Origin: a virus
Reading direction: 5' to 3' (one strand)
DNA length: 36,799 bases
Virus record (IMG/VR): IMGVR_UViG_3300004154_000022
Coordinates: 1 to 36,799 of that record
Both the position numbers and the translations under genes were made by a program. The notes under the pieces are model-generated. The model made no database searches, was not told the DNA's origin, and worked only from the letters and a program-made list of their open reading frames with translations. Shown here piece after piece: positions 2,451-36,766 of this stretch; position 1 is the first letter of the stretch, and each line of letters opens with the position of its first letter.

Positions 2451-4553
2451 ATGAGCAACGCACCAGATAGAAAAAGACTTTATGAACTACAAGAGATGGG
2501 TATTTGCGGTATACACCGAAAGCTCGACAAGAACGCCGGATCGTATTGGGAGCGCCAAGTATCGACGACTTTTAAAGTAGAGAAAGCGTTCATCAATGCA
2601 AAATTGTTCGGAAAAGATAAGTTCGGGCTCGTATTCTCACGGGATTATACCGTTATAGATATCGACCTTGACAAGATAAAGGACAAAGAACAGGCGAAAA
2701 GCGCGACGGACTTCCTCGACTCGCACCCCCTGTTCTCGAATACGTGGCAAGTTCGCACCCCCTCGGGGGGTCGCCACTACGTATTCAAGTACCCGATCGA
2801 AAAGGTGATAAAAAACCGGGCGGGCGTAACCCTGCTCTTTTCGCTGGGGGATGTGGAATTCCCTTTCATCGACGTTCCTTGGAACCTCGGTTTCTCGGAC
2901 GAATACGCTATCGAAAACCCCGTTGACCCGCTGGTTATAGACGACGACGGATTCGAGACGCTGGGGCTCATACCGAAAAAAGAGGTAACAGAACAAAAAG
3001 AATCGAAACCGATAACGGACTTAGTAGGCGTTGACAAAGGTTTAAGAGATAGGATTCTCGAGTGGTTCCCCGAGTGCGCCGAGTTCCACGAATACCCGAG
3101 CTTTAGGATGCCGCCCCCGTGGCGGGAGAGTAAGTCGGGAACGGCGCTACTGGTCGACCTCGAAAAAGGTATATACTGCGACTTTGGCGCCGGCCACGAC
3201 GAACCGGGGCGAGCCTGCGACGGGGGGCGGCTGGAAAAGCTCTATTTGAAAATGCACCCCGACGCTACTATAGAGGACGTTAAACGGGAGTATCTGGGCG
3301 TCAACGAACGTATGGCCGAGACGCTGCGCTCTTTCGTGTGTATATACAGGGGCGAGCTGAGCGTACACGCCCGGCGGCACCCTGAATTCTCGATGAATAG
3401 GGCGGCTTTTAACTCGAAATTTGCCGGCATACGGGTCAAAAAAACCGCGCCTTTCGAGGTCGCGACTGAGAGCGGGCTTCTACAAAGCGCGGATGATCTA
3501 CAGTATTACCCCGGCGCGGATGAATTCTTTATGTCGAACGGGCTCACCATGTTCAACACGTACCGGGCGCCCACGTTTGACAGTACTGCCGGCGGGGTCG
3601 ATTGGTTCCTTGAGCACCTCGACTATTTGTTCGACGGCGTCGACAAAGAGATAATTGTCAATCACTTGTTAAACTATATCGCGCACATGGTACAACGCCC
3701 GGGGGTGCGTATACGACACGGGGTTCTCATTTGTGGCCGTGAGCAAGGAACCGGAAAAAGCCTTATACTGGAAACGGTCGCCAAGCTAATAGGCGAACAT
3801 AATCAAGTAGTACTCAACAACGAAGTACTGGCCGAGAAGTTCAACGGATGGTCAGCAAATAGCGTTATGGCGTCCCTTGACGAGGCTCGTATCGGCGGGT
3901 ACAATATTTACACGAAGTTCAAGGAACTTATCGCACAAGACCGCATAGCCGTGCGCGAGATGCACAAGCAAACGGCGACCCGCCAAACGTTCTTTCATTT
4001 TTGGGCGACGTCAAATTATGCTGACCCGTTTATAATGGACAAAGACGACCGCCGGTTCTTCGTGGCACGTGTCGAAAGCCCGAAAAAGCCCATAGGCTAT
4101 TACATAGAATTTAGGAAAAACCGCGACAGATACGCGGGGGCGCTCCATAAATTCTTTAGTGCGTACGAGATCCGGGATCTTGACGGGGCGGATATTTCGG
4201 ACGAATTCGCGGGGATGCACCCGCCCACCACGAGAGCAAAAGAGCAGATTATCGAGGACACCAAGCCCGATATACAAGCGGAGCTCGAGCAGCTCATACA
4301 AGACAAAATCGTCGTAATTACGAAAGAGCTCGCGAGAAAGATCCGTTTTGAAGATAATCATTATAAGTGTACGGGGCAATTTATCGGGCGCCTGCTCACT
4401 GAGCAGGGGCACGACACCGGCGGCAAGCGGAAATTTGACGGGGAAGAGTTCCGCTATCGTATAATCGACCGCATAAAGTGGGGGGCAATGACCTACGACG
4501 AACAAACGAAAGAGCTTTTAAAAGAGCTTAACAAGACCGACGGCGTATTTTAG
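2451..4553 (+). CDS. DNA primase-polymerase / SF3 helicase fusion (VapE/DUF5906-like)
   Basis: A 700-residue replication initiator-type protein. Residues about 10-115 form a bifunctional primase-polymerase domain: VIDIDLD with metal-binding D70 and D72, then TPSGGRH with H109. The C-terminal half is an SF3-type (DUF5906/VapE-like) ATPase: Walker A GREQGTGKS at 429-437, an acidic Walker B-like segment (VMASLDEAR), and ATSNYADPF with a following DDRRFF arginine element. Such fusions synthesise primers and unwind the phage origin, forming a hexamer on DNA. The gene is followed by a non-coding region full of inverted 9-mers, a reasonable partner origin. The DNA polymerase that would extend the primers is at 30150-32048 on the other strand. 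The start has a modest GAGG upstream. Confidence 0.85.
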   Translation: MSNAPDRKRLYELQEMGICGIHRKLDKNAGSYWERQVSTTFKVEKAFINAKLFGKDKFGLVFSRDYTVIDIDLDKIKDKEQAKSATDFLDSHPLFSNTWQVRTPSGGRHYVFKYPIEKVIKNRAGVTLLFSLGDVEFPFIDVPWNLGFSDEYAIENPVDPLVIDDDGFETLGLIPKKEVTEQKESKPITDLVGVDKGLRDRILEWFPECAEFHEYPSFRMPPPWRESKSGTALLVDLEKGIYCDFGAGHDEPGRACDGGRLEKLYLKMHPDATIEDVKREYLGVNERMAETLRSFVCIYRGELSVHARRHPEFSMNRAAFNSKFAGIRVKKTAPFEVATESGLLQSADDLQYYPGADEFFMSNGLTMFNTYRAPTFDSTAGGVDWFLEHLDYLFDGVDKEIIVNHLLNYIAHMVQRPGVRIRHGVLICGREQGTGKSLILETVAKLIGEHNQVVLNNEVLAEKFNGWSANSVMASLDEARIGGYNIYTKFKELIAQDRIAVREMHKQTATRQTFFHFWATSNYADPFIMDKDDRRFFVARVESPKKPIGYYIEFRKNRDRYAGALHKFFSAYEIRDLDGADISDEFAGMHPPTTRAKEQIIEDTKPDIQAELEQLIQDKIVVITKELARKIRFEDNHYKCTGQFIGRLLTEQGHDTGGKRKFDGEEFRYRIIDRIKWGAMTYDEQTKELLKELNKTDGVF

Positions 4554-4592
4554 TTGACGAACGGGGGGAAGCCCCCTATAAAAAATAACATG

Positions 4593-4921
4593 GAGGGCTG
4601 GGGGGCTGGAAAAACGAACTTTGTACCGTAGCACTGTTTTGAGGCTCTTTATTGGTGGAATAACTCATTTTGCGCAAAGTTAATTTGACCAGCCCTCCAG
4701 CCCCCTAAGTACTATTTTGAATAACTGAAAAGCTCGAAACCCTGTGTTTTATGGGCTTTTACCGTTCTTCATTAGGCGAGCCGAGGGGGCTGGATACTAT
4801 TTGACCAGCCCCCGTCATGAGCCCCCTTATTTTAGTTTGTAGATATACCGGGGCGTAAAAGTACATAAAAAATAAATTAAGGGGGCTCATGAGGGGGCTG
4901 GACGCCAACTCACCAGCCCCC
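4593..4921. repeat. array of GGGGGCTGG / CCAGCCCCC boxes: candidate replication origin
   Basis: The 389-base gap after the primase-helicase (4554-4942) has no convincing gene. It contains eight 9-mer boxes, four per strand: plus at 4593 (GAGGGCTGG), 4601, 4785 and 4893; minus at 4689 (CCAGCCCTC), 4697, 4805 and 4913. Two 29-nt hairpins (4785-4813, 4893-4921) have perfect 9-bp arms and 11-base loops and sit exactly 108 bases apart. The 4593-4609 and 4689-4705 pairs each overlap by one base. A further long inverted pair, 4805-4834 against 4873-4901, includes CATGAGCCCCC. The setting suggests initiator binding, but transcriptional control is also possible. Confidence 0.55.
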
Positions 4922-4942
4922 GAAAGAACAAAGTGAGGTACT

Positions 4943-5122
4943 ATGTCAAGATTAACACAAATCGAGCGCCGAGCGGCTCTCGTACGCAAGGGTGCCGAGA
5001 AAGAGCGCACGCGGATCATTGAAGGGTTTATGGCGTATGTGGTGTCAAGGGGATGGCGTCAACGGCTCAGATACGCCCTCAGGATCCTATTTCGGGCACG
5101 CGCCAAAGAGGTGAGAAAATGA
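4943..5122 (+). CDS. small strongly basic hypothetical protein (59 aa)
   Basis: Starts at ATG after GAGG four bases upstream, and ends in an ATGA overlap with the endolysin gene. The protein begins MSRLTQIERRAALVRKG and is very rich in arginine, with a helical C-terminal half. A moderately hydrophobic stretch (FMAYVV) is too short for a membrane span. Not recognised. Translational coupling to the amidase is likely; it might bind nucleic acid, but that is inference from charge only. Confidence 0.6.
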   Translation: MSRLTQIERRAALVRKGAEKERTRIIEGFMAYVVSRGWRQRLRYALRILFRARAKEVRK

Positions 5123-5691
5123 CAGTAAATGACTTTACGTACGGGTACAAGGTAGACCGGACAATCCGCGAGAAGTATGAGTGCGACGGATTCCCCCGTG
5201 AGGGCAAACAAGTGTACTCTCATATAGTACACGCGACCGACGGCGGCGTCGGCCTCTTGGCGTGGATGAGGGGCGGCGAGAGATCCGAGGAGTATCGGCG
5301 CGGGATCGCCCTCTTTCACCGTTGTATAGATCCGGACGGTACTATCACGGAAGTGATTAACCCCCATAACTGGGTGTATCACACGGGCACGGGTAAGGCA
5401 GGCGATCTTACGACTATCGGGACGGAGTTTATAAAGCGTTCGGCGTCGTTTCCGACCGTTGAACAATACGCCGCATACGTCGAACTCTTGCGCTTTGATC
5501 TTGAACGTTTTCCCGTTCGTGAGATCATCGGGCATAATATGTACCAAAAGAGAGCGACGGGCGTGTATACGAGGCCGGGGCGCTCAGTATGCCCGGGGGC
5601 GTTCGACTGGGAATACTTAGAGATGGCTATTCGTGCGGGTATCAAGTGCGGTACGGTTCGAACTAAAGAACAAATTGTCATAACAAAATAG
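5119..5691 (+). CDS. endolysin: N-acetylmuramoyl-L-alanine amidase (Amidase_2)
   Basis: A 190-residue single-domain zinc amidase that cleaves the bond between MurNAc and L-alanine in peptidoglycan. Visible elements: SHIVHATDG (zinc ligand H38), WVYHTG, TTIGTEF (E103), IIGHNMY (zinc ligand H139) and GRSVCPGAFDW (C158 as third ligand). The order H-H-C matches T7 lysozyme-type Amidase_2 enzymes. The ATG at 5119 is chosen for its GAGGTGAG ribosome site and ATGA overlap; the frame extends to 5053 but lacks a good site there. No signal peptide, so it needs a holin to reach the wall. The holin/spanin genes are about 9 kb away at 14177-15004. Confidence 0.88.
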   Translation: MTVNDFTYGYKVDRTIREKYECDGFPREGKQVYSHIVHATDGGVGLLAWMRGGERSEEYRRGIALFHRCIDPDGTITEVINPHNWVYHTGTGKAGDLTTIGTEFIKRSASFPTVEQYAAYVELLRFDLERFPVREIIGHNMYQKRATGVYTRPGRSVCPGAFDWEYLEMAIRAGIKCGTVRTKEQIVITK

Positions 5692-7186: not shown

Positions 7187-7344
7187 TGGACAAACAATAC
7201 GAGGGGCTAGTCGTTACAACGGTACATTTACCCGCAAGCTTAGCGAAGCGGCTAGATGAGTATGTTCGGGCGGAGAGCGGCCGCACAAAGAAGGCAGTTT
7301 TTGCGCTTGCTCTGGGAGCGTTCTTAGACAAGCCGAGCGAATAG
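7186..7344 (+). CDS. ribbon-helix-helix (CopG/Arc-like) small DNA-binding protein
   Basis: 52 residues, begins MDKQYEGLVVTTVHLPASL. A short strand (VVTTVHL), helix A (PASLAKRLDEYVRAE) and helix B (TKKAVFALALGAFLDK) give the ribbon-helix-helix order. Such proteins are dimeric and insert the paired strands into the major groove. It is translationally linked to the upstream HNH gene (TAATG). It could repress its own operon through the inverted repeat at 6387-6418 or the one at 7427-7458. The two repeats share geometry but not sequence, so this is only an inference. Confidence 0.65.
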   Translation: MDKQYEGLVVTTVHLPASLAKRLDEYVRAESGRTKKAVFALALGAFLDKPSE

Positions 7345-7426
7345 TGTTTCTATGTGTAGTAACTTTTTAGAGTAAAAGCACTAAAAATAACTGCTAAAAA
7401 AATAGCAAAAAGTTAGCGGAAAAGAC

Positions 7427-7455
7427 TTGACAATAACTAATTTCGTAAGTATTGT
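7427..7455 (+). promoter_or_regulatory. strong promoter candidate
   Basis: TTGACA (7427-7432), a 17-base spacer and TATTGT (7450-7455), with A-tracts upstream (7383-7424) resembling an UP element. The 20-base block around the -35 (7421-7440) recurs exactly at the minus-strand promoter at 34437-34456. It would transcribe the leader and terminator at 7530-7572 and then the genes from 7587. Confidence 0.7.
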
Positions 7456-7458
7456 CAA
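7427..7458. promoter_or_regulatory. 9-14-9 inverted repeat covering the promoter, candidate operator
   Basis: TTGACAATA (7427-7435) and TATTGTCAA (7450-7458) form a perfect inverted pair with a 14-base spacer. They cover both the -35 and -10 boxes, so a bound dimer would block RNA polymerase. The arm and spacer lengths equal those of the repeat at 6387-6418. Confidence 0.55.
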
Positions 7459-7949: not shown

Positions 7950-8147
7950 ATGGAAACGATAAGCATTGAATTTACACGAGAAGAGCCACGGATCGGCGAT
8001 AGATGCGTTTTTTGGGATGACCACGAATCAGGTTATAGCGTGGGGGTACTTACCGACGTAGATTTTGAGCTAACATATCCATATGAAAAAGACGACAACG
8101 ACTTGTGGATATACTGCGCAAAGATTAAAAGAGAAGCGGACTCCTAA
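7950..8147 (+). CDS. small acidic hypothetical protein (65 aa)
   Basis: Not recognised. Acidic, with strand-like segments (RCVFWDDHESGYSVGVLTDV) typical of a small beta-barrel. The start has AGAGG upstream. Its stop overlaps by a few bases the end of the convergent terminase small-subunit gene, and a hairpin terminator spans the junction. Confidence 0.6.
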   Translation: METISIEFTREEPRIGDRCVFWDDHESGYSVGVLTDVDFELTYPYEKDDNDLWIYCAKIKREADS

Positions 8148-8162
8148 GCCCGCTTTCTTTTT
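8134..8162. terminator. bidirectional terminator between convergent genes
   Basis: AAGCGG (8134-8139) pairs with CCGCTT (8150-8155) around a 10-base loop. On the plus strand it is followed by TCTTTTT; on the minus strand the same stem is followed by CTCTTTTAAT. It covers the stop codons of both the 7950 gene and the terminase small-subunit gene, so it probably stops transcription from both sides. Confidence 0.6.
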
Positions 8163-8758
8163 GCCTCGACCTCGTTTTCTACCTCGCTCTCATTATCTAC
8201 CTCGCTTACGTTCTCTAGTTGCCTCAAATTGTCCGGGAGCTGATAGCGGACAACCTCAATTCCAACGTTACCCTCAAGATTGACATACGTTTTCTGCTGC
8301 CATTTTTCTGACTTTTGAGTCGAAAGGATATACTGACACGCGGCCACGTCCGGCGCGAGCTCTTTCTTAAGTTCCATTACCTGACCCGTTTTTGTCATGA
8401 CCTCAGCGTACACCGTCATACCAAGCGCCCGCATAAACAGCGCGTCCTCAACGGCCGCGACTCTGAGCTTGTCACCCGTGAGCCGGGCGTCCTCAAAAGC
8501 CTTATGAAAGCCTGAGTCCTCTCTGAGCCACGCGTTTATCGTCGCCGACGTAACCCCGAGCGTGTCGGCGATCTCTAGTATAGGGGCGCCGAGCTCACAA
8601 AGCTTAAGAATTAACTTTCGTTTGTTTGGTGTCGAGTTAAGGTCTTTTGCCGCGACGAGATCCGGGTCGTATTTGTTCGAGAACTTTGTCCGCTTTTTAC
8701 GAGCTAAGGGCGTCGCGTTCTCGGGGGCGTCGGTTTTCTTTGGTATGTGCTTACTCAC
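8144..8758 (-). CDS. terS: terminase small subunit
   Basis: 204 residues. A helix-turn-helix near residues 50-80 (LCELGAPILEIADTLGVTSATINAWL) is followed by GFHKAFEDARLTGDKLRVAAVEDALFMRALG and then a segment ending PDVAACQYILSTQKSEKW. That order and the kW ending are typical of small terminases, which recognise the packaging site and feed DNA to the large subunit. The tail is strongly charged. It is on the minus strand, about 19 kb from the large subunit at 27702-29132, which is unusual since the two are normally adjacent. The GTG start overlaps the upstream gene's stop. Confidence 0.75.
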   Translation of the reverse strand: MSKHIPKKTDAPENATPLARKKRTKFSNKYDPDLVAAKDLNSTPNKRKLILKLCELGAPILEIADTLGVTSATINAWLREDSGFHKAFEDARLTGDKLRVAAVEDALFMRALGMTVYAEVMTKTGQVMELKKELAPDVAACQYILSTQKSEKWQQKTYVNLEGNVGIEVVRYQLPDNLRQLENVSEVDNESEVENEVEAKRKRA

Positions 8759-27701: not shown

Positions 27702-29132
27702 ATGCCCGAGAGAATAATTGCCCCACAAAAGGGCGCACAAGAAACGTTTTTATCAAGTTCGGCCGATATTGCAATATACGGCGGCTCGGCGGGGTCGGGT
27801 AAGTCGTTCTCGCTACTTATGGAGCCCTTGCACTACGTACACGTCCCCGGCTATAACGCTACGATATTTCGTCGGACGAACCCAGAAATTACGGCGCCGG
27901 GTGGACTCTGGGACACGGCGAACGATCTCTATCGCCCGCTCGGCGCGAACCTTGTCGCCTCTCCCACTATGCAAGCGAAATTCAAAGAGTCGCGGATTGA
28001 CTTCCGACATTTACAACACGAAAAGGACGTGTACTCGTGGCAAGGCTCACAGCTTTGCACTATTCTATTTGACGAGCTTACCCATTTTTCGAAAGAGGTG
28101 TTCTTTTACCTGCTATCACGTAACCGCTCGACGTGCGGCGTGGCGCCGTATGTGCGCGGGACGTGTAACCCCGACCCGGATCACTGGCTTTCTGAGTTTA
28201 TGTCGTGGTATATTGATCAAGACACCGGCTACCCTATCCCCGAGCGATCCGGGAAAGTACGATATTTCGTGCGCCTCGACGGCGAGGTACTATGGAGCGG
28301 GCAGAAAAACGTTCTCGCTCGATCCGTCGACCTATCCGTCGAGGACAAAGCGCAGGGGCTCTCGGCGGAGAGTATGGTCAAGTCTTTTACCTTTATTTCG
28401 GCGTCAATATACGACAATAAGATCTTACTTAAGCAAAACCCGGGCTACTTGGCTAACCTCAAAGCCCTGCCGAACGTCGAGAAAGAGCAACTATTATACG
28501 GCAACTGGAAAATTAAACGATCAAAGGGTGAGTACTTTCGCCGCCATTGGTTCCGTTTTATCGACTCACTCCCGCCCGCTCACGTCGTACGCTCTTGTAT
28601 TCGTGGCTGGGATAGGGCGGCGACTGAGAAAACAACGGATAACAACCCGGATTACACGGCGGGGGTTTTGCTGATAAAAACGACGGACAACGAATATATA
28701 ATCGCGGACGTGAGGCGCTTTCGTGAGCGGCCGGCAAAACGAAACGCTTTTATGCTCGAGACGGCAAGACAGGACGCCGCAATGTATAAAAATGCGCGGA
28801 CGGTACTCGAGCAGGATCCGGGGCAAGCGGGGATAACTGAGGTTGAGCAGCTTGTCAAGGAATACACGGCGGCGAATCTCTTAATCGACAAAGTGAGGGT
28901 GTCGGATAGGAAAGTGACAAGGGCGCTCCCGCTTTCGGCAGCGTGTGAGAACGGCCTTGTCACTATACTTCGCGGGGCGTGGAACGAAGCTTTCTTACAA
29001 GAACTTGAGGCTTTCTCGAACGACCCGAGAGATTATACGCACGACGACCAAATCGACGCGGCGTCGTGTGCGTATAACCGGATACAAACAACGGGCTCAG
29101 GATACAACCTCGACGCTCTGACTTCTATTTAA
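27702..29132 (+). CDS. terL: terminase large subunit
   Basis: 476 residues. ATPase: Walker A GGSAGSGKS (27-35), Walker B TILFDE (D124/E125). RNase H-like nuclease: GWDRAA (D304), E370/D372 in LEQDPGQAG, and HDDQIDAAS (D449). It cuts and pumps the phage DNA into the prohead. Frame overlaps the convergent HNH/AP2 gene by 36 bases. Its small subunit lies far away at 8144-8758 on the minus strand. Confidence 0.9.
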   Translation: MPERIIAPQKGAQETFLSSSADIAIYGGSAGSGKSFSLLMEPLHYVHVPGYNATIFRRTNPEITAPGGLWDTANDLYRPLGANLVASPTMQAKFKESRIDFRHLQHEKDVYSWQGSQLCTILFDELTHFSKEVFFYLLSRNRSTCGVAPYVRGTCNPDPDHWLSEFMSWYIDQDTGYPIPERSGKVRYFVRLDGEVLWSGQKNVLARSVDLSVEDKAQGLSAESMVKSFTFISASIYDNKILLKQNPGYLANLKALPNVEKEQLLYGNWKIKRSKGEYFRRHWFRFIDSLPPAHVVRSCIRGWDRAATEKTTDNNPDYTAGVLLIKTTDNEYIIADVRRFRERPAKRNAFMLETARQDAAMYKNARTVLEQDPGQAGITEVEQLVKEYTAANLLIDKVRVSDRKVTRALPLSAACENGLVTILRGAWNEAFLQELEAFSNDPRDYTHDDQIDAASCAYNRIQTTGSGYNLDALTSI

Positions 29133-30048: not shown

Positions 30049-30153
30049 TCAGCGCCCCCTCTTTATGCGGATATATAACTCAATAAGCGAAATAAGCGTA
30101 CCGACGAGCAGGGCGAAGATGACCGCCGTGGCTATAAAAATAATCTCTATCAT
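30049..30153 (-). CDS. tiny single-span membrane protein
   Basis: 34 residues, MIEIIFIATAVIFALLVGTL then a basic tail IRIKRGR. The ATG shares bases with the polymerase TGA (ATGA), and the AGAGGGGG of its 3' end is the ribosome site for the next gene. Function unknown; it may be only a linker ORF, but the overlap and the clean membrane helix support translation. Confidence 0.45.
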   Translation of the reverse strand: MIEIIFIATAVIFALLVGTLISLIELYIRIKRGR

Positions 30154-32048
30154 TTATGGTACCTCTTACAAATTTCTATTTCTGTTTTCATAGGAAACCC
30201 GACAAACCACGACGGCGGGGCGTTTGTGATCCGCTCGAAAATCTTGGCGCCGAACTCGACCAAGTCGTCGGGCTCATAGCAGATAATTTCGTCGTGGACG
30301 TGAAAGAGGGGCGAGAGCCCGTGGTTTTTCATATCGATCATACACTCGACGAGAAGGTCACGACATACCGCTTGGGTCACGTTCTCGGCCAAGATCCCGC
30401 CGTACAAGTACACCCGCGCTTTTCGCGAGTGGTTAAAGTACGAGAGCCCCCGCTCATCTTGTTTTACGTCGTGATAATAAAGTTCCCGCCCGGAGGGTAA
30501 GCGAATGGCAACGTAATTGTTCGCCCCACGTACCGACACGTACGAGCCTACCTTACAAGTGAACTTTTGTTTTCTGCCTACATAACAATTAGAGAACGCC
30601 GTCTCGAGGTTACGCCAGAACGTCGGTATTTTCGGATACATACCGCGAAACATCTTGATAGCGTGCTCGGCAAGCTCCGGCGATACTGTGAGTCCGTCCT
30701 TTTGGCACGTTTGAAAGAACTTTGACGCGCCCATTCCGTATGAGCTTGCCAAAATTACCTTTTTACCGAGTTGACGCTCAAAGCCCTCTTTTGAGATCGC
30801 CGATGCGGGCTTGTTGAAAAGCGTGGCCGCCGTCGATATATACACGTCCTCGCCGTTCTTAAATTGCTTAATCAGGGTATTCTCACCCGCCAAAAATGCG
30901 AGCCCCCGCGCCTCGATAGCGGCAAAGTCACCCATAATAAAGGACTTACCCGCCTCAGCACAAATAAGGCCGGGAAGTATTCTTTTAGCCGTGTCAATCA
31001 GGGCTTTACGGTCGCCCTCTGAGCCGTCGAACGCCTCAATCATGCCCGCTATCTTTTCGGGCTTTGTCTTGGTACGGGGCAGATTATGGGGTTGAAAGCC
31101 CCGCCCCGACCAACGACCCGTTCCCGCGCCGAAGTACAAAAGAGAATGGCGCAAAAAGCCGTCCTCGGATACGCGGTCAATCATGCTCTGAAATTTCTTG
31201 ACGGACGCTTTCGCCAAGAATAAACGAAGCTCAAGAACCGCGTACACGTCGCCGGATAAGCACGGTATTTCGGACGTTTCTTTTATCGTCTCGACTTTGC
31301 AATCGTCAACGCGCACGCCCCGCTCCCGCAAATAATTTTGCAATTGCTTGGGGCTACGAATATTGATACCGTACTTTTTCGCCTCGAGTTCGGCGAGCTC
31401 GTACGCCTTCGTAAGCTCAGCTTGTACCTTATAGAGCGAGTCGACGTCAACGGGCAGCCCCTTGATATTTTGCTCAAAGTCCAGAGAAAAAGCACCCGTC
31501 TCTCTGTGATTCGTCTCGAGGTTTTTCAATTTGTTGTAACACTCAAAATCGGCTTGTACGTCGGCGCGACAATACTCGTACATAAGGTCGCGATCCTCGC
31601 CGACAAGGGGACGGAATTCGCCCCCGGCGCGTATAGGCTTAGAGTACTTGTTTATTAAGCCGATACCCGTGTTGAGCTTTTGCGATACGTTAAGAGCTTT
31701 CGCGCACTCCCCCAAAGATCCGGGCATACCGACCGCGACCGATAGCGCCCGCGTGCATACCCATACGTCGGCGCGTGTCATACGCTCGGGGAAGCCGTAG
31801 CGTGGGACGGCGACGTTTGCGCACATAGCGTGCTCAAAAAGGGCATTACGTGCGACATATACGGCGTCGGGAGCGTCGAATTCCGACGGCAGCTTGTCGC
31901 CCGGCGTCCATAACTGGACGGATCCGAGCCCCTCCCACGTGTACGCCATACAAAAAAGCCCGGTCGAGCAGTCCTCGGAGTATACCCACGCCCCCCGCTT
32001 TTTTAAGTCACAGCGGGAGTACGTCTCAAAGTCAATATGTATAATCAT
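30150..32048 (-). CDS. family A DNA polymerase with 3'-5' exonuclease (phage type)
   Basis: 632 residues from ATG 32048 (ATGA overlap with the upstream stop; the frame extends to 32063). Exonuclease: Exo I DFE (D6/E8), Exo II around NALFEHAMC, and Exo III YCRAD. Polymerase: motif A DFAAIEAR (D374; here A replaces the usual Q/Y), motif B RQLGKKVILASSYG (K429, Y437), motif C HVHDE (583-587). It replicates the phage genome and proofreads. It is of the group that also contains DpoZ. The gene is downstream of DUF2800, as in many phages, but on the strand opposite to the primase-helicase. Confidence 0.88.
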   Translation of the reverse strand: MIIHIDFETYSRCDLKKRGAWVYSEDCSTGLFCMAYTWEGLGSVQLWTPGDKLPSEFDAPDAVYVARNALFEHAMCANVAVPRYGFPERMTRADVWVCTRALSVAVGMPGSLGECAKALNVSQKLNTGIGLINKYSKPIRAGGEFRPLVGEDRDLMYEYCRADVQADFECYNKLKNLETNHRETGAFSLDFEQNIKGLPVDVDSLYKVQAELTKAYELAELEAKKYGINIRSPKQLQNYLRERGVRVDDCKVETIKETSEIPCLSGDVYAVLELRLFLAKASVKKFQSMIDRVSEDGFLRHSLLYFGAGTGRWSGRGFQPHNLPRTKTKPEKIAGMIEAFDGSEGDRKALIDTAKRILPGLICAEAGKSFIMGDFAAIEARGLAFLAGENTLIKQFKNGEDVYISTAATLFNKPASAISKEGFERQLGKKVILASSYGMGASKFFQTCQKDGLTVSPELAEHAIKMFRGMYPKIPTFWRNLETAFSNCYVGRKQKFTCKVGSYVSVRGANNYVAIRLPSGRELYYHDVKQDERGLSYFNHSRKARVYLYGGILAENVTQAVCRDLLVECMIDMKNHGLSPLFHVHDEIICYEPDDLVEFGAKIFERITNAPPSWFVGFPMKTEIEICKRYHK

Positions 32049-32278
32049 TTTATAACCTTCCATAATTCCGAGCGGTCGAGATATACCTCGAAAGCGTGGT
32101 GATTCGTCTCGACCCGTACCCGGTACTTTTTATCTTTTCCAAATTTGTGTATTTGTTGAACGCGACCGATAAAACCGTGCAATTTCCGACCGTCGGGGTG
32201 AGTGAGTCCCTGCTTGTCGGCTAATACCACTATGTCCCCCACCCGTAGACGGCGTAAAACAATAGGAAATTTAATCAT
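32045..32278 (-). CDS. hypothetical protein (77 aa)
   Basis: Not recognised by name. Looks like a small SH3-like or KOW-type barrel: RVGDIVVLADKQG, HGFIGRVQQIHKFG, KYRVRVETNHHAF, KVIK. Such a fold often binds nucleic acid or protein. It lies between DUF2800 and the polymerase with overlaps on both sides. Confidence 0.65.
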   Translation of the reverse strand: MIKFPIVLRRLRVGDIVVLADKQGLTHPDGRKLHGFIGRVQQIHKFGKDKKYRVRVETNHHAFEVYLDRSELWKVIK

Positions 32279-33375
32279 TATAGCACCTCGAATACGTCGC
32301 CGCTTTTGTCTTTCTCGGCTAATTTATAAAGCTCAGGTTTAGAATACAACTCGGAAATATTCACTTTTCCGGCTAACTTTTCAGCTTGCGCGGGGGTGAT
32401 TATCTCGCGGGGCTTGAACAGCTTTTCGCCCAAAAAGGACAGCTTTTCATTGACAAGGCCAAGATCGACCCAACGTCTATGACCGTACGAGGTCACTTTT
32501 TGCACGTTTTCAAAGGCGACGCCGGAGTCAATTAAGGCCGTGAGACGTTGCTCGACCGCCGCAAGAAAGGACTCAAGCGGCTTTTTCAAGAGCCATACTG
32601 CCTCTAACTTCTCACGGGTCAATCCTTCCATATCGCCCGCCGACGCCGCCAAAAGCCCGGCGACAAGCTCAGTATACTTATGAGCAAATTTACACGTAAC
32701 AATACCAGGACAAAAGGCGCAATGTCCGCCGGGGCGAAAGTCGTTTTCTGAGAGCAATAGGTTACGGGTCATTTTGTCGAGGTCTTTCGCGGGTGTCTCT
32801 ATAAGTTTAGAGAACGTGAACACGCGCTCCGCTTCGTTATAATAGTTCGGCTGGACGACGTGGCCGCGTAAAGTCTTGGGATTGTCGAGGTATATAAGCG
32901 CCGATAAAGTAAGCTGCTCCGTGGCGCTTTCGCCGTAGTGGAAGTTACCCGTTTTTAAGTCGATTATGTCGACCCCGCCCGACGTGACGATCATCGCGTC
33001 GGCTTTGAATACGCAATCGACCCCGTTCGACGTTACCCGACTTTTTTGTTCAATAAGTAGCTCGCCCCCGCGCTTTTTCCATAACTTTTTAACGTACTTC
33101 GTGTAATAGTCGACGGCGTTAAAAGCCTTGTCATAATCCGGGGACGTGTCGAGAATTCCTTGCGCCTTAAGTGAGGCCTTAACGGCAACCGGCTTTTTAT
33201 TCTCGGCGATGGCGAAAAGGATTGTCTCGGCGGCGGCGTGGATTGACGAGCCGAGCGACGCGGCGTTCGCGAACGCGTTGTACTTAAGCTCCGGCGTGAT
33301 AGTATTTTCGAGATGAAACGACGCGGGGCACTTGACGACGCGGCTCGCGCTTGACGCTGACAATTTGTATTTCAC
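32278..33375 (-). CDS. DUF2800 protein, PD-(D/E)XK/Cas4-like exonuclease
   Basis: 365 residues. LSASSASRVVKCPASFHLE at the start, VDIIDLKTGNF in the middle (D-x-K nuclease element) and CAFCPGIVTCKF (C-x2-C-x5-C) follow the DUF2800 pattern, related to RecB/Cas4 nucleases that carry an iron-sulphur or zinc cluster. Phages encode it next to DUF2815 and the polymerase; here DUF2815 is on the other strand. The GTG start has GGGGGG upstream. Confidence 0.75.
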   Translation of the reverse strand: MKYKLSASSASRVVKCPASFHLENTITPELKYNAFANAASLGSSIHAAAETILFAIAENKKPVAVKASLKAQGILDTSPDYDKAFNAVDYYTKYVKKLWKKRGGELLIEQKSRVTSNGVDCVFKADAMIVTSGGVDIIDLKTGNFHYGESATEQLTLSALIYLDNPKTLRGHVVQPNYYNEAERVFTFSKLIETPAKDLDKMTRNLLLSENDFRPGGHCAFCPGIVTCKFAHKYTELVAGLLAASAGDMEGLTREKLEAVWLLKKPLESFLAAVEQRLTALIDSGVAFENVQKVTSYGHRRWVDLGLVNEKLSFLGEKLFKPREIITPAQAEKLAGKVNISELYSKPELYKLAEKDKSGDVFEVL

Positions 33376-33590
33376 TTCGCCCCCCGTATACGCTCTAGTT
33401 TTTCTTTTGCGGCCTTAACTCTCGACTTGAGCTCCGCGTCCACGACTTCGAACGCCTCGCCCCAAGCGCCCGCGGGGAGCCCTTTTTCGTCGTCGGCCTT
33501 GAACGTCCCGCCGACCTTGACCCGGTAGCTTTCGAAGTTCCCTGTGTTTAGTGTGCGCCCTAGCGAAATCGTAATACTTTCTACTTTCAT
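33372..33590 (-). CDS. hypothetical protein (72 aa)
   Basis: Not recognised. A small alpha/beta protein with ESITISLGRTLNTGNFESYRVKVGG and a charged C-terminal helix. Similar small proteins commonly precede DUF2800 in phages. AGAGAGGTTAAAA before the ATG, a start region shared nearly exactly with the 33604 gene. Confidence 0.6.
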   Translation of the reverse strand: MKVESITISLGRTLNTGNFESYRVKVGGTFKADDEKGLPAGAWGEAFEVVDAELKSRVKAAKEKLERIRGAK

Positions 33591-33603
33591 TTTTTAACCT
33601 CTC

Positions 33604-34083
33604 TTAATATTCCTCGGCCTCTCGCCGAGTTATGAAAAAATGTATCCCGCTTGCGCACTCGTCGAATCGGTCGTCGCAAAACGGCTCTTTAGGCTCGACG
33701 GTCGCGCCGACTCTATACTCAAAATCGTTATCGCGCTGCGAGTAGGCCACCTCGGCGCCGCCTGTATCTAAGACGATAGCTTTTGACGCGCGGCACTTGC
33801 GCCCCGTGGCACTCGACCGCTTCGCGTCGGCGGGGATTAACAGCTTGACGATAATACCCCCGGCGCACTTTTTGAAAGCCGTGAACTCACCCTCCTTGGG
33901 GCAGCTTATGGGGACGTGCAAGTCTGCCCCCCGCAAGTCTGCCCCCTGCAAGTCTGCCCCCTGCAAGTCGGCCCCCTGCAAGTCTGCCCCCTGCAAGTCT
34001 GCCCTTGATCCGGCGGGGTCGTCTTGGCGCCATAATGAGTGTAACCGCAATATTTTGACTAATTGCTCCGTGTTCAATTTCAT
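33604..34083 (-). CDS. pentapeptide-repeat protein with DUF5758 domain
   Basis: 159 residues. Residues about 26-55 are six A(D)LxG-type pentapeptides (GADLQ repeated), encoded by a 15-nt tandem repeat at 33920-34009. The C-terminal half fits DUF5758: ADAKRSSATGRKCRASKAIVLD, DFEYRVGATV, and ECASGIHFFITRREAEEY. The family has no known activity. Only 1.5 turns of beta-helix are possible with six repeats, so it may not mimic DNA. Confidence 0.75.
   Translation of the reverse strand: MKLNTEQLVKILRLHSLWRQDDPAGSRADLQGADLQGADLQGADLQGADLRGADLHVPISCPKEGEFTAFKKCAGGIIVKLLIPADAKRSSATGRKCRASKAIVLDTGGAEVAYSQRDNDFEYRVGATVEPKEPFCDDRFDECASGIHFFITRREAEEY
33920..34009 (-). repeat. six tandem 15-nt repeats (pentapeptide units)
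   Basis: Units read AAGTCTGCCCCCTGC or near it on the plus strand, so each gives one pentapeptide (GADLQ-like) on the minus strand. The middle copies are almost identical, suggesting recent slippage. Confidence 0.85.
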
Positions 34084-34241
34084 TTTTTAACCTCTCTTTT
34101 CTTAACGTTCTTTTTAATAGAAACAATCTTACGCGGCTCGGGGGCGAGATCCGCCTCACCCCTAAGCTCTTTATTGACAATAAATATACGAACCGGACGG
34201 AAAACAAAATCCGGGTCGCTTGGGTCGTTTTCCCTATTCAT
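34080..34241 (-). CDS. small basic hypothetical protein (53 aa)
   Basis: Starts at ATG 34241 with GGGGGCAG upstream; the frame is open to 34298 but without a good ribosome site. MNRENDPSDPDFVFRPVRIF begins it and a lysine-rich tail (SIKKNVKKREVKK) ends it. Not recognised. Overlaps the pentapeptide gene by four bases. Confidence 0.55.
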   Translation of the reverse strand: MNRENDPSDPDFVFRPVRIFIVNKELRGEADLAPEPRKIVSIKKNVKKREVKK

Positions 34242-34252
34242 TTTCTGCCCCC

Positions 34253-34390
34253 TTAGTCCAAAAGTCCGGCGTGAGTCAACCGGACAAACGCTTCGCACTC
34301 CGCAAGCGAGCCGCGAAAAAGCGACTCGTACGGGGCACCTGTGTTATAAACTTCGAACGTCTCGTCTTCGTAATGTCTTACCCTCAGCAT
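34253..34390 (-). CDS. small hypothetical protein, first gene of minus-strand operon
   Basis: 45 residues from ATG 34390, preceded by GAGAGG. The frame extends to 34450, but that is inside the promoter. MLRVRHYEDETFEVYNTGAP begins the protein. Not recognised. Its place directly behind the strong promoter at 34422-34450 makes it the first transcribed gene of the replication operon. Confidence 0.55.
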   Translation of the reverse strand: MLRVRHYEDETFEVYNTGAPYESLFRGSLAECEAFVRLTHAGLLD

Positions 34391-34421
34391 AAAAATACCT
34401 CTCTTTCCTTTAATTTCGGAT

Positions 34422-34450
34422 ACATTAACCGCGTCGTTAGTTATTGTCAA
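34422..34450 (-). promoter_or_regulatory. promoter of the minus-strand replication operon
   Basis: TTGACA (34450-34445), 17-base spacer, TAATGT (34427-34422) on the minus strand, with A-tracts upstream. The 20-base block AAAGACTTGACAATAACTAA is identical to that at 7421-7440 and carries the same upstream A-rich TAAAAAAATAGCAA. Confidence 0.7.
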
Positions 34451-34494
34451 GTCTTTATTGCTATTTTTTTACGTAATTTTTTAGCAAAAAAGAA

Positions 34495-34523
34495 TTGACT
34501 TTATGACCCGACGTGAGTACTGT
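34495..34523 (+). promoter_or_regulatory. promoter of the DUF2815 gene
   Basis: TTGACT (34495-34500), 17-base spacer, TACTGT (34518-34523). Divergent from the 34450 promoter and sharing the TANTGT type of -10. The transcript would start about 30 bases before the AAAGGAG ribosome site. Confidence 0.6.
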
Positions 34524-34562
34524 CTTTTTTAGAGACGTTAAATTTATTTAAAGGAGTTCTTC

Positions 34563-35186
34563 ATGAAAAAAGAACGATTCTTAATCAAAAATGTTCGTTG
34601 TGTATATCCGTCCCTTGACACCCCTAGGGCGTTCGACGGACAAACAGAGGAGCAAGCGAAGTACGGTATTAAAATCTTGATACCGAAAGCTGCAAAAGGG
34701 CAGCTCGCTGAGATCAAAGCGAACGTCACAAGAGCAATCGACGAAAACGGGGATTGGTCGGCAACGGTTAAAAAGCAAGTCACAAAAACCGCTTTCGACG
34801 CTGACCCGTACAACGACAATTGTATTTTGAAGGACGGGGACGCCGTTAACGCTCGCCGTATCGACGAGGGCAAGACTGCAATCGCGGCTTATGCGGGTAT
34901 GATTGTTCTGGGCGCGAACCGTAACCGTAAGGGCGGGGCTCCGACCGTGAAAGACCGTCACAACGTGGCTATACCCTCGGGTATGGTAGCGGGCGAGATT
35001 CTCTCGGGCTACTGGATCAACTTGTACGTTGAGGTTTACCTTTACAGCAAGCCGAAACAAGGCGCGACGCTTTCGCTTTTAGGCGTACAGAAAGTGAAAG
35101 AGGACGAAGTTTTCGGACGTGAGGACGCTTTCGAGGCACTGGACGAAGACGAGGACGACGACAAAGAAGGCGCGTTCGACGAGTAA
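34563..35186 (+). CDS. DUF2815 protein, probable single-stranded DNA-binding/annealing protein
   Basis: 207 residues. MKKERFLIKNVRCVYPSLDTPRAF, then YGIKILIPKAAKGQLAEI, YWINLYVEVYLYSKPK and a C-terminal tail of about 20 mainly acidic residues (DEDEDDDKEGAFDE), as in DUF2815. Such acidic tails recruit replication partners in SSB-like proteins. It is usually next to DUF2800 and the polymerase; here it is divergent from them, on the plus strand. Confidence 0.75.
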   Translation: MKKERFLIKNVRCVYPSLDTPRAFDGQTEEQAKYGIKILIPKAAKGQLAEIKANVTRAIDENGDWSATVKKQVTKTAFDADPYNDNCILKDGDAVNARRIDEGKTAIAAYAGMIVLGANRNRKGGAPTVKDRHNVAIPSGMVAGEILSGYWINLYVEVYLYSKPKQGATLSLLGVQKVKEDEVFGREDAFEALDEDEDDDKEGAFDE

Positions 35187-35203
35187 GGCTTTTTGTAGTA
35201 CGC

Positions 35204-35237
35204 CCCCCGTTCGCTCACGCGGCGGGGGTATTTTTTT
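35204..35237 (+). terminator. terminator after the DUF2815 gene
   Basis: CCCCCG (35204-35209) pairs with CGGGGG (35223-35228) around 13 bases, followed by TATTTTTTT. Confidence 0.75.
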
Positions 35238-35256
35238 ATTATGAGAGGCGGTTTTT

Positions 35257-35475
35257 ATGGAAGTACTTTTATCGAGAGACGCGGTATACCACGTATTTGT
35301 AGAAAGACAGTATCAAAACGGATCCGAGCACTATATATGTGAATCGCGTATAGAGGCCGAGGCGCTCGTCAACAAGTATCTTGATAACTCGGAAGTAGAC
35401 GGGCTAACGGTGATCTTAGGCGTTGAACAGCAAATAAAGGCCGTCGAAAAGATCACGCAATATATGCTAGAATAA
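35257..35475 (+). CDS. hypothetical protein (72 aa)
   Basis: Not recognised. Acidic and helical/strand mixed (DAVYHVFVERQYQ; EAEALVNKYLDN). GAGAGG precedes the ATG. It lies between the terminator and the repeat-containing gene. Confidence 0.6.
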   Translation: MEVLLSRDAVYHVFVERQYQNGSEHYICESRIEAEALVNKYLDNSEVDGLTVILGVEQQIKAVEKITQYMLE

Positions 35476-35491
35476 AACAAGGGGTTAAAAA

Positions 35492-35770
35492 ATGATAACA
35501 AGAGACGACGCAAAAAAACTCACTAGCCGTACAAGTATAGCTGCAATCTGGGCGACGGCGCTTTTCGGCGGGGGTGTATCACTCGACGCGAAGAGAGAAG
35601 ACCCGCTCGACGCAAAAAGGGAAGATCCGCTCGACGCAAAAAGGGAAGATCCGCTCGACGGCGTGGACTTAGCGAAAGAGTACAGGCTCGTACAAGAGAA
35701 AAAGAGCCGCTTGTCGGCAAGAAAACGGGCGCTTGTTGTTAAGCGTTACGAGAGCGGAGAAAAAAAATGA
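35492..35770 (+). CDS. repeat-containing protein (92 aa) with LDAKREDP units
   Basis: 92 residues. MITRDDAKKLTSRTSIAAIW begins it; three copies of LDAKREDP follow at about residues 31-54, then a basic helix ending RKRALVVKRYESGEKK. The units come from a 24-nt tandem repeat (35582-35653) whose second and third copies are identical. The first 25 bases around its start codon are identical to those of the next gene. Function unknown. Confidence 0.65.
   Translation: MITRDDAKKLTSRTSIAAIWATALFGGGVSLDAKREDPLDAKREDPLDAKREDPLDGVDLAKEYRLVQEKKSRLSARKRALVVKRYESGEKK
35582..35653 (+). repeat. three tandem 24-nt repeats
   Basis: Units at 35582-35605, 35606-35629 and 35630-35653, each starting CTCGACGC and ending GA(C/T)CCG; the last two are identical. 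An eight-base partial unit follows. They encode LDAKREDP three times in frame, so copy-number change would alter protein length without breaking it. Confidence 0.85.
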
Positions 35771-36003
35771 TAACAAGAGACGACGCGCGAAAAGGGGTAA
35801 CGTTAAAAACGTACTCGATGAAAGTCGCGGTAACCGAGGACGAATGGGCGAGAATAACGGCGGCCGTCGAGGGCTTACGAAAGAGCGGTCGAGCCGTTTT
35901 TCGCGTGCCCGATACGCTCGGGATCATGCTTGTTAGTATGGTCGGGGACGACATTTTATTGGCTCGTACCCGTGAAAAACTACGAGCGGCGGCGACAGAA
36001 TAG
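35767..36003 (+). CDS. hypothetical protein (78 aa) with duplicated start
   Basis: 78 residues, MITRDDARKGVTLKTYSMKV. The start region (35762-35786) is identical over 25 bases to that of the 35492 gene, so the two share the N-terminal MITRDDA. The rest (TEDEWARITAAVEGLRKSGRAVFRVPDTLG) is helical with strand segments and not recognised. ATGA overlap with the previous gene. Confidence 0.6.
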   Translation: MITRDDARKGVTLKTYSMKVAVTEDEWARITAAVEGLRKSGRAVFRVPDTLGIMLVSMVGDDILLARTREKLRAAATE

Positions 36004-36008
36004 GGGTG

Positions 36009-36027
36009 GAGTGCAACGTTGCACCTC
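36009..36027. promoter_or_regulatory. 19-nt palindromic site upstream of the ParB-like gene
   Basis: GAGTGCAACGTTGCACCTC; its core GTGCAACGTTGCAC (36011-36024) is a perfect 14-nt palindrome. The same 19 nt occur at 10005-10023. Candidate binding site for a partition or regulatory protein. Confidence 0.5.
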
Positions 36028-36121
36028 AAGAGACAAAACGCTTAAAAAGCCCGAAAACAGGCTAAAAAGCGCCAAAATGAGCGGAAAGTCATACGCGAAC
36101 ACGCAAAAAAGAGAGGTTAAA

Positions 36122-36766
36122 GTGACACAACAAGAAGACCCGAAAACGCTTCCACTATACCCGCGATTTAAAAACGCGTACCCGATAGCACCCGAGAACC
36201 TCGAGCGGATCGCCGAGGACATGGAGAAAAACGGGTACGACATATCAGAACCCATAAAGATCGCCATTATTGACGAGCTCGGCGGGCTTGAATATGTCTA
36301 CGATGGCCATACGCGCCGAGAGGCGTCAATCCGCGTTGGGTTAATCCGCGTACCTTGTGTACGTAAGCGTTTTAAAACGGTTAAGGACGTCCTCGCAGCT
36401 ATCGGGCATATACAAAAAGACCGCCGCAACCTCGACGACAAGTCGAGAATCCAGGACATTATGAATCATTGGGATGAGTATATGGTCGCGCCCAATAAAA
36501 AGGCGTACGTGGCCGAGCTCCTGAGAATGTCGGAGCGTACCGCCGCGAAATATATCTCGATACTCAGCGACCCGAAACGCTTACAATTAGTTATGGACGA
36601 CCGCGAGACGGTCAACTCTGTGCAAGCGGTCAAGGGGGCGGAGCGGTCAAAGTTTGACGAGATAAAACGCAAGGTCGAGAAATTAGAGTTGTCGGAACTG
36701 GACGAACTGGAAAAGGCAATCAAGCGAATTAAAAAAGAACTTAAGAGAGGGGGACAAAATGGCTAA
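36122..36766 (+). CDS. ParB/Spo0J-like N-terminal domain protein
   Basis: 214 residues from GTG 36122 with GAGAGG upstream (the frame extends to 35930 but has no clear ribosome site). FKNAYPIAPENLERIAEDMEKNGYDISEPIKIAIID, then YVYDGHTRREASIRVGLIRVPC and LDDKSRIQDIMNHWDEYM fit the ParB nuclease-like (CTPase) fold: a site close to GHTRREAS matches the conserved box. The C-terminal part is a charged helix. Phages use such proteins for partition or as regulators and DNA methylase partners. The palindrome 36009-36027 is a possible target. Confidence 0.75.
   Translation: MTQQEDPKTLPLYPRFKNAYPIAPENLERIAEDMEKNGYDISEPIKIAIIDELGGLEYVYDGHTRREASIRVGLIRVPCVRKRFKTVKDVLAAIGHIQKDRRNLDDKSRIQDIMNHWDEYMVAPNKKAYVAELLRMSERTAAKYISILSDPKRLQLVMDDRETVNSVQAVKGAERSKFDEIKRKVEKLELSELDELEKAIKRIKKELKRGGQNG

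Follow-up and report, generated by a model that had tools for sequence, protein, structure and literature searches.

The 36,799-base virus record analysed here over its whole length (the window) encodes a major capsid protein, portal, sheath, tape measure, baseplate and large terminase, and its replication genes include those for a family A polymerase (PolA), a DUF2800 nuclease, an Enc34-type ssDNA-binding protein and an initiator (2451-4553, + strand). On the basis of Pfam, PHROG and Foldseek comparisons, the initiator appears to combine a Prim-Pol N-terminus, an SF3 (DUF5906/VapE-like) helicase and a C-terminal winged-helix-like part. Its Pfam matches are to DUF5906 (1.9e-14) and, below the cutoff, to Prim-Pol (5.6e-4), and the PHROG match is to a DNA primase (7.7e-30). 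The best Foldseek match in the PDB is the C-terminal (helicase) region of the NrS-1 prim-pol (1.6e-17), followed by other prim-pol helicases and by initiators of phage-inducible chromosomal islands (PICIs), among them the SaPI5 primase-helicase (1.0e-9) and PriRep1 (3.6e-9), which are distant at 13-14% identity. The AlphaFold model has a pLDDT of ~80-97 for much of the helicase (residues 380-600) and is poor elsewhere; residues 607-690 (codons at 4269-4520, + strand) are predicted by AlphaFold2 at low pLDDT (~47-64) to form a winged-helix-like arrangement of helix-helix-helix-strand-strand. The replication gene set (2451-4553 and 30150-36766) is similar to that of Casjensviridae-like phages, e.g. 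Aeromonas AhMtk13b. A further gene (8144-8758, - strand) encodes an HTH-containing protein with homologues in three large-terminase loci (L121, L122 and L159); this is possibly a small terminase, and it lies on the other strand from, and far from, the large terminase gene at 27702.

The primase-helicase stop codon, which ends at 4553, is followed by a noncoding interval of 389 bases (4554-4942) that extends to the start codon of a 59-residue reading frame (4943-5122, + strand). This frame is preceded by a ribosome-site-like stretch (AAAGTGAGG) and followed by an amidase gene (5053-5691). A preliminary description of this DNA considered the interval to be the only gap of more than 300 bases, which is correct if short ORFs (e.g. 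~7187-7345) are counted as genes and incorrect otherwise. A symmetric element (TTGACAATA...TATTGTCAA, 7427-7458) that is promoter-like on either strand is found after that short ORF. The same description reported eight near-identical 9-mers in the interval, four on each strand, and we recovered precisely this set, comprising six exact copies of GGGGGCTGG and two copies with one mismatch (GAGGGCTGG). These boxes start at 4593 (GAGGGCTGG), 4601, 4785 and 4893 on the + strand and at 4689 (GAGGGCTGG), 4697, 4805 and 4913 on the - strand. Three partial boxes with a GGGGGCT core (- strand, 4568-4576 and 4818-4826; + strand, 4881-4889) bring the total to 11, in the order - 4568; + 4593, + 4601; - 4689, - 4697; + 4785, - 4805, - 4818; + 4881, + 4893, - 4913. 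No exact copy of GGGGGCTGG occurs in the remainder of the 36.8 kb window. The repetition is confirmed to exceed chance: in 2000 shuffles of the region that kept its dinucleotide composition, no 9-mer had six exact copies (maximum five, seen once), and the one-mismatch box score of 9 was attained in none of 300. Next in rank among the 9-mer arrays of the window are tandem GCAAGTCTGCCCCCT repeats inside an ORF (33604-34083, - strand) that resembles a pentapeptide-repeat protein.

The boxes are GC-rich (84%) and the sequence between them is not (35%). Two tandem boxes at an offset of 8 (GAGGGCTGG and GGGGGCTGG, 4593-4609, + strand) face inverted tandem boxes at the same offset (4689-4705, - strand) across a 79-nt spacer of 35% GC (4610-4688), and together these form a quasi-palindrome, designated A (4592-4706), with a stem of ~17 bp, which begins ~38 nt past the primase stop codon, and a 79-nt loop. 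Further downstream, two three-box modules, at 4785-4826 (+ 4785, - 4805 and the partial - 4818; offsets 20 and 13) and at 4881-4921 (the partial + 4881, + 4893 and - 4913; offsets 12 and 20), are separated by a 54-nt spacer (4827-4880), whose GC content of 24% is the lowest among the long spacers and which is proposed below as a melting site. The two perfect hairpins described previously are present at 4785-4813 and 4893-4921, each with a 9-bp stem and an 11-nt loop, and their starts are exactly 108 bases apart as stated. They are the two halves of a single quasi-palindrome (4784-4922), and the mirror pair noted at the other end of the interval is the second one, A. Single-strand folding of the region gives z-scores of -7.6 (RNA) and -8.8 (DNA).

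The comparison took in more than 80 other viruses. At loci with an initiator homologue the 450 nt past its stop codon were scored for boxes against all other windows of the locus, within a redundant set of loci. This stretch was the best box window of its locus in Stenotrophomonas S1, Vibrio 1.017.O, the window phage and E. coli 611R5, where 0/39, 0/28, 0/237 and 0/67 other windows, respectively, scored as well. The box sequences themselves are unrelated (CCGCACATG, TTTGGATAC, GGGGGCTGG and AGGTGACGG in the same order), and the layout recurs, with tandem boxes 7-9 nt apart opposite inverted tandem boxes over ~78-89 nt. Yersinia YeP4, a full-size phage with a distantly related primase-helicase, likewise carries an array in the same place with a different box sequence. 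Two near-identical contigs (L232 and L233) also ranked first; they were left out because they scored lower, at 6, and their boxes point mostly the same way. Three-box modules of the type (s,s,-s), with offsets of 11-13 and 19-21, occur twice each in the window, in 611R5 and in the E. coli PICI EcCICFT073, and once in Vibrio 1.017.O; per 50,000 random layouts these counts were reached by 103, 128, 398 and 741, respectively, figures that are descriptive since the module was defined post hoc. The other loci, among which AXL_3-like ones are numerous, mostly lack an array in the 450 nt after the primase gene, and the post-primase gaps of ~500 nt in Pseudomonas Ppu-503 and Aeromonas AhMtk13b contain no clear array.

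Searches for close relatives of the window initiator or polymerase returned none, and the covariation described below accordingly concerns relatives of 611R5. Large-terminase relatives were found at 60 loci, and the primase was not detected in the 50 records searched, in a search that lacked a positive control. Matches to GGGGGCTGG-N9-13-CCAGCCCCC in viral_contigs (112 stretches) were rejected as relatives, as the loci examined have at most three boxes within 600 nt and were taken to be isolated hairpins, and an alignment of six phages (A1) proved too diverged to serve as a search query. In the AXL_3/PW916 group, which contains the nearest helicase relatives (~25% identical), no such array follows the gene; scanned over its full length, the AXL_3 genome gave only a coding repeat, with no array in noncoding sequence. 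A search of related phages for boxes beside the primase, as first suggested, gives arrays with unrelated boxes at an equivalent position in several of them, and none after the gene in the AXL_3 group. Absence of the boxes in relatives with the same initiator had been named as evidence against an origin, and the AXL_3 group goes some way towards this; however, its proteins are only ~25% identical to the window initiator, and in AXL_3 a DNA helicase is encoded by a gene of its own. Three records from the phages collection (OR844947.1, OR848870.1 and PV593182.1), whose names refer to Enterococcus, Listeria and Staphylococcus, have matches to prim-pol genes of enterobacteria, which may reflect mislabelling or carry-over.

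The strongest new evidence is that from the relatives of 611R5, for which scans gave 82 further related loci. Among E. coli prophages with initiators that share 97-100% identity with that of 611R5, all ~10 boxes switch jointly between AGGTGACGG, AGGTGGCAG and AGGTAACAG, and 20 of the 28 variable positions in these near-identical proteins fall within 34 alignment columns near the C-terminus. Examples of a C-terminal motif and the box that goes with it are FVYRIW with AGGTGACGG (a pairing that extends to proteins sharing only 81-82% identity with 611R5), TVRMW with AGGTGGCAG, GYRFW with AGGTAACAG, KKCKVW with GTGGTTCC, KMTRIF with GTTGGTACA, KLMKVW with GTGGTAACA and KQQRVF with AGGTTGTCT. In two families of 611R5 relatives the partial correlation between box distance and C-terminal distance (last ~50 residues), controlled for distance in the rest of the initiator, is 0.71 (20 distinct loci) and 0.69 (55 distinct loci), values matched in 0/2000 permutations; with the roles of the two protein parts exchanged, the partial correlations are -0.50 and -0.09, and the box sequence thus follows the end of the initiator and not the remainder. 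Across six E. coli arrays the boxes are no more invariant than the spacers (51/86 versus 108/204 columns, p 0.37), because the boxes differ between classes, and it is their concerted change that is informative. This covariation is consistent with recognition of the boxes by a C-terminal winged helix in the 611R5 relatives, and from the position of the covarying region we propose residues 607-690 of the window initiator as a putative box-reading domain. Recombinational exchange of the gene end linked with the adjacent array could be the source of part of the covariation. Such linked exchange would still preserve matched pairs, and alone it does not account for the agreement among all boxes of an array whose spacers stay alignable. 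One prophage family (L275-L332) matches the 611R5 initiator mainly over the N-terminal prim-pol part (~residues 1-323) and has its own arrays at conserved positions, an apparent domain exchange in the initiator with the downstream array kept. At another locus (L258) the frame of a 611R5-type initiator is broken near its C-terminal end, and the downstream array is still there.

These observations have to be weighed against readings in which the array does not act as an origin. Directly past the primase stop codon lies a sigma-70-like promoter (TTGACG-N17-TATAAA, 4554-4582, + strand). Together with one other site it makes up the two on the + strand in which either hexamer matches at 5/6 positions or better, and it might start a structured leader of ~350 nt that controls the downstream lysis and structural genes by processing, termination or antitermination. 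The strength of the predicted RNA fold agrees with this, as does the position of the downstream hairpin (B), which ends shortly before the ribosome-site-like stretch. We nevertheless consider such a leader an unlikely explanation of the array, given that a search of the region yielded no intrinsic terminator and no Rfam family at the gathering score (sub-threshold matches of microRNA and snoRNA type were dismissed), that the fold does not require direct tandem boxes or helical-turn offsets, and that dependence of the box sequence on the initiator C-terminus, as seen in relatives, is not predicted for an RNA leader. Because of the promoter and the strong RNA fold, a transcriptional or RNA role may be added to an origin role or, less likely, replace it; the earlier suggestion that the hairpins act in RNA may likewise hold as an additional function. 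The promoter spacer contains the partial box at 4568-4576 (- strand), as would suit an operator array bound by an activator or repressor, which may be the initiator itself and which controls transcription without any part in the start of replication. That the boxes continue for ~340 nt beyond the promoter, and that the same organisation is present in a PICI functionally tested as an origin, makes this highly unlikely.

It is also conceivable that structure rather than box sequence is recognised, with a stem-loop like that of pRN1, or a hairpin like the ssi of RSF1010, extruded as a priming site. The stem of A is comparable with the essential stem-loop of pRN1 (PMC4234260), yet the window and several relatives also have directly repeated boxes at fixed offsets, and recognition of structure leaves the covariation of box and protein domain in relatives unexplained; we regard it as improbable. 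A partition (centromere) site is extremely unlikely. The same genome does encode a ParB-like protein (35930-36766; weak match to phrog_4715, 3.1e-7), but no ParA was found among the ORFs scanned, and the relatives that share the array organisation were found via the initiator, not via ParB.

We conclude that the array is, with good probability, a PICI-type, initiator-linked replication origin in a full-size phage. This rests on the adjacency of array and initiator, on a spacing common to a tested PICI origin and on the covariation of boxes with the C-terminus in relatives, and the earlier proposal of an origin beside the initiator is supported by comparison with arrays of the same design. It receives no help from GC skew, the check then suggested: over the whole window the skew does not turn at 4.7 kb, where the array lies, and it reaches its cumulative minimum near 34.3 kb, where transcription diverges; the measure is uninformative on the origin. 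For the window phage itself we infer the origin from architecture, and binding, melting and initiation likewise. The initiator C-terminus would bind the GGGGGCTGG boxes as double-stranded DNA, oppositely oriented boxes would load helicase assemblies that face each other, an AT-rich spacer (4827-4880 and/or 4610-4688) would melt and be primed by the primase, and phage-encoded PolA, SSB and nuclease would carry on replication. It seems somewhat more probable than the contrary that PICI-type origins extend beyond PICIs, and that many tailed phages with prim-pol/SF3 initiators, the window phage included, share one design in which specificity comes from a short C-terminal winged-helix stretch that exchanges with the boxes. 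If true, phages would fall into natural groups by replicon specificity, and the code by which protein recognises DNA would be readable. The origin assignment, if right, would provide a probable replication start for a phage group without one and show satellite islands to share one origin design with full phages, and the E. coli prophages would offer natural matched sets of initiator ends and boxes for work on origin recognition and competition between co-resident phages. The literature covered was that of open-licence papers, and these phage arrays may have been described elsewhere.

Among known systems, the oriV of RSF1010 with ssiA/ssiB resembles the window in having iterons and stem-loops tied to a primase (PMC4234260), but it employs three separate proteins and its iterons are distinct from the primase hairpins. 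The alpha protein of phage P4 (origin repeats, crr), compared here by description rather than by sequence, is an initiator with primase, helicase and DNA-binding winged helix that acts on repeats (PMC4234260). It has a bacterial-type TOPRIM primase, whereas no TOPRIM family is among the Pfam matches of the window initiator, whose N-terminal match is the weak one to Prim-Pol. The prim-pol/SF3 initiator of pRN1 requires a 100-bp stem-loop downstream of its gene, with a 21-nt stem and a 58-nt loop located 54 bp downstream, and stem integrity is needed (PMC4234260). Both pRN1 and Bordetella phage BIP-1, for which a stem-loop has been proposed (PMC4234260), share with the window a prim-pol/SF3 protein with a winged helix (in the window a low-confidence prediction) and a long-loop inverted repeat just downstream, and palindrome A corresponds to the ~100-bp element of pRN1. 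In contrast, pRN1 has been described without iteron structure, and the stems in the window are made of repeated boxes, 11 in all. PICI origins lie immediately 3' of the primase/initiator gene, and that of EcCICFT073 has been functionally tested (PMC6092414). The window element is not itself a PICI, as its own capsid, tail and terminase genes mark it as a phage, its box sequence differs, and the EcCI Pri-Rep protein gives no BLASTP match to the window initiator at E 1. The likeness to the origins of SaPIs and EcCICFT073 is otherwise close: iterons in both orientations surround an AT-rich segment directly 3' of a primase-helicase gene of this (distantly related) fold, and in the window the array starts at 4554, one base past the stop codon, with three-box sets around the 54-nt segment and tandem pairs around the 79-nt one. 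In the 288-nt 3' region of EcCICFT073, boxes related to GGTAGACAG number 12 and point in both directions, and its three-box offsets (11-13 and 19-21) are identical in kind to those of the window.
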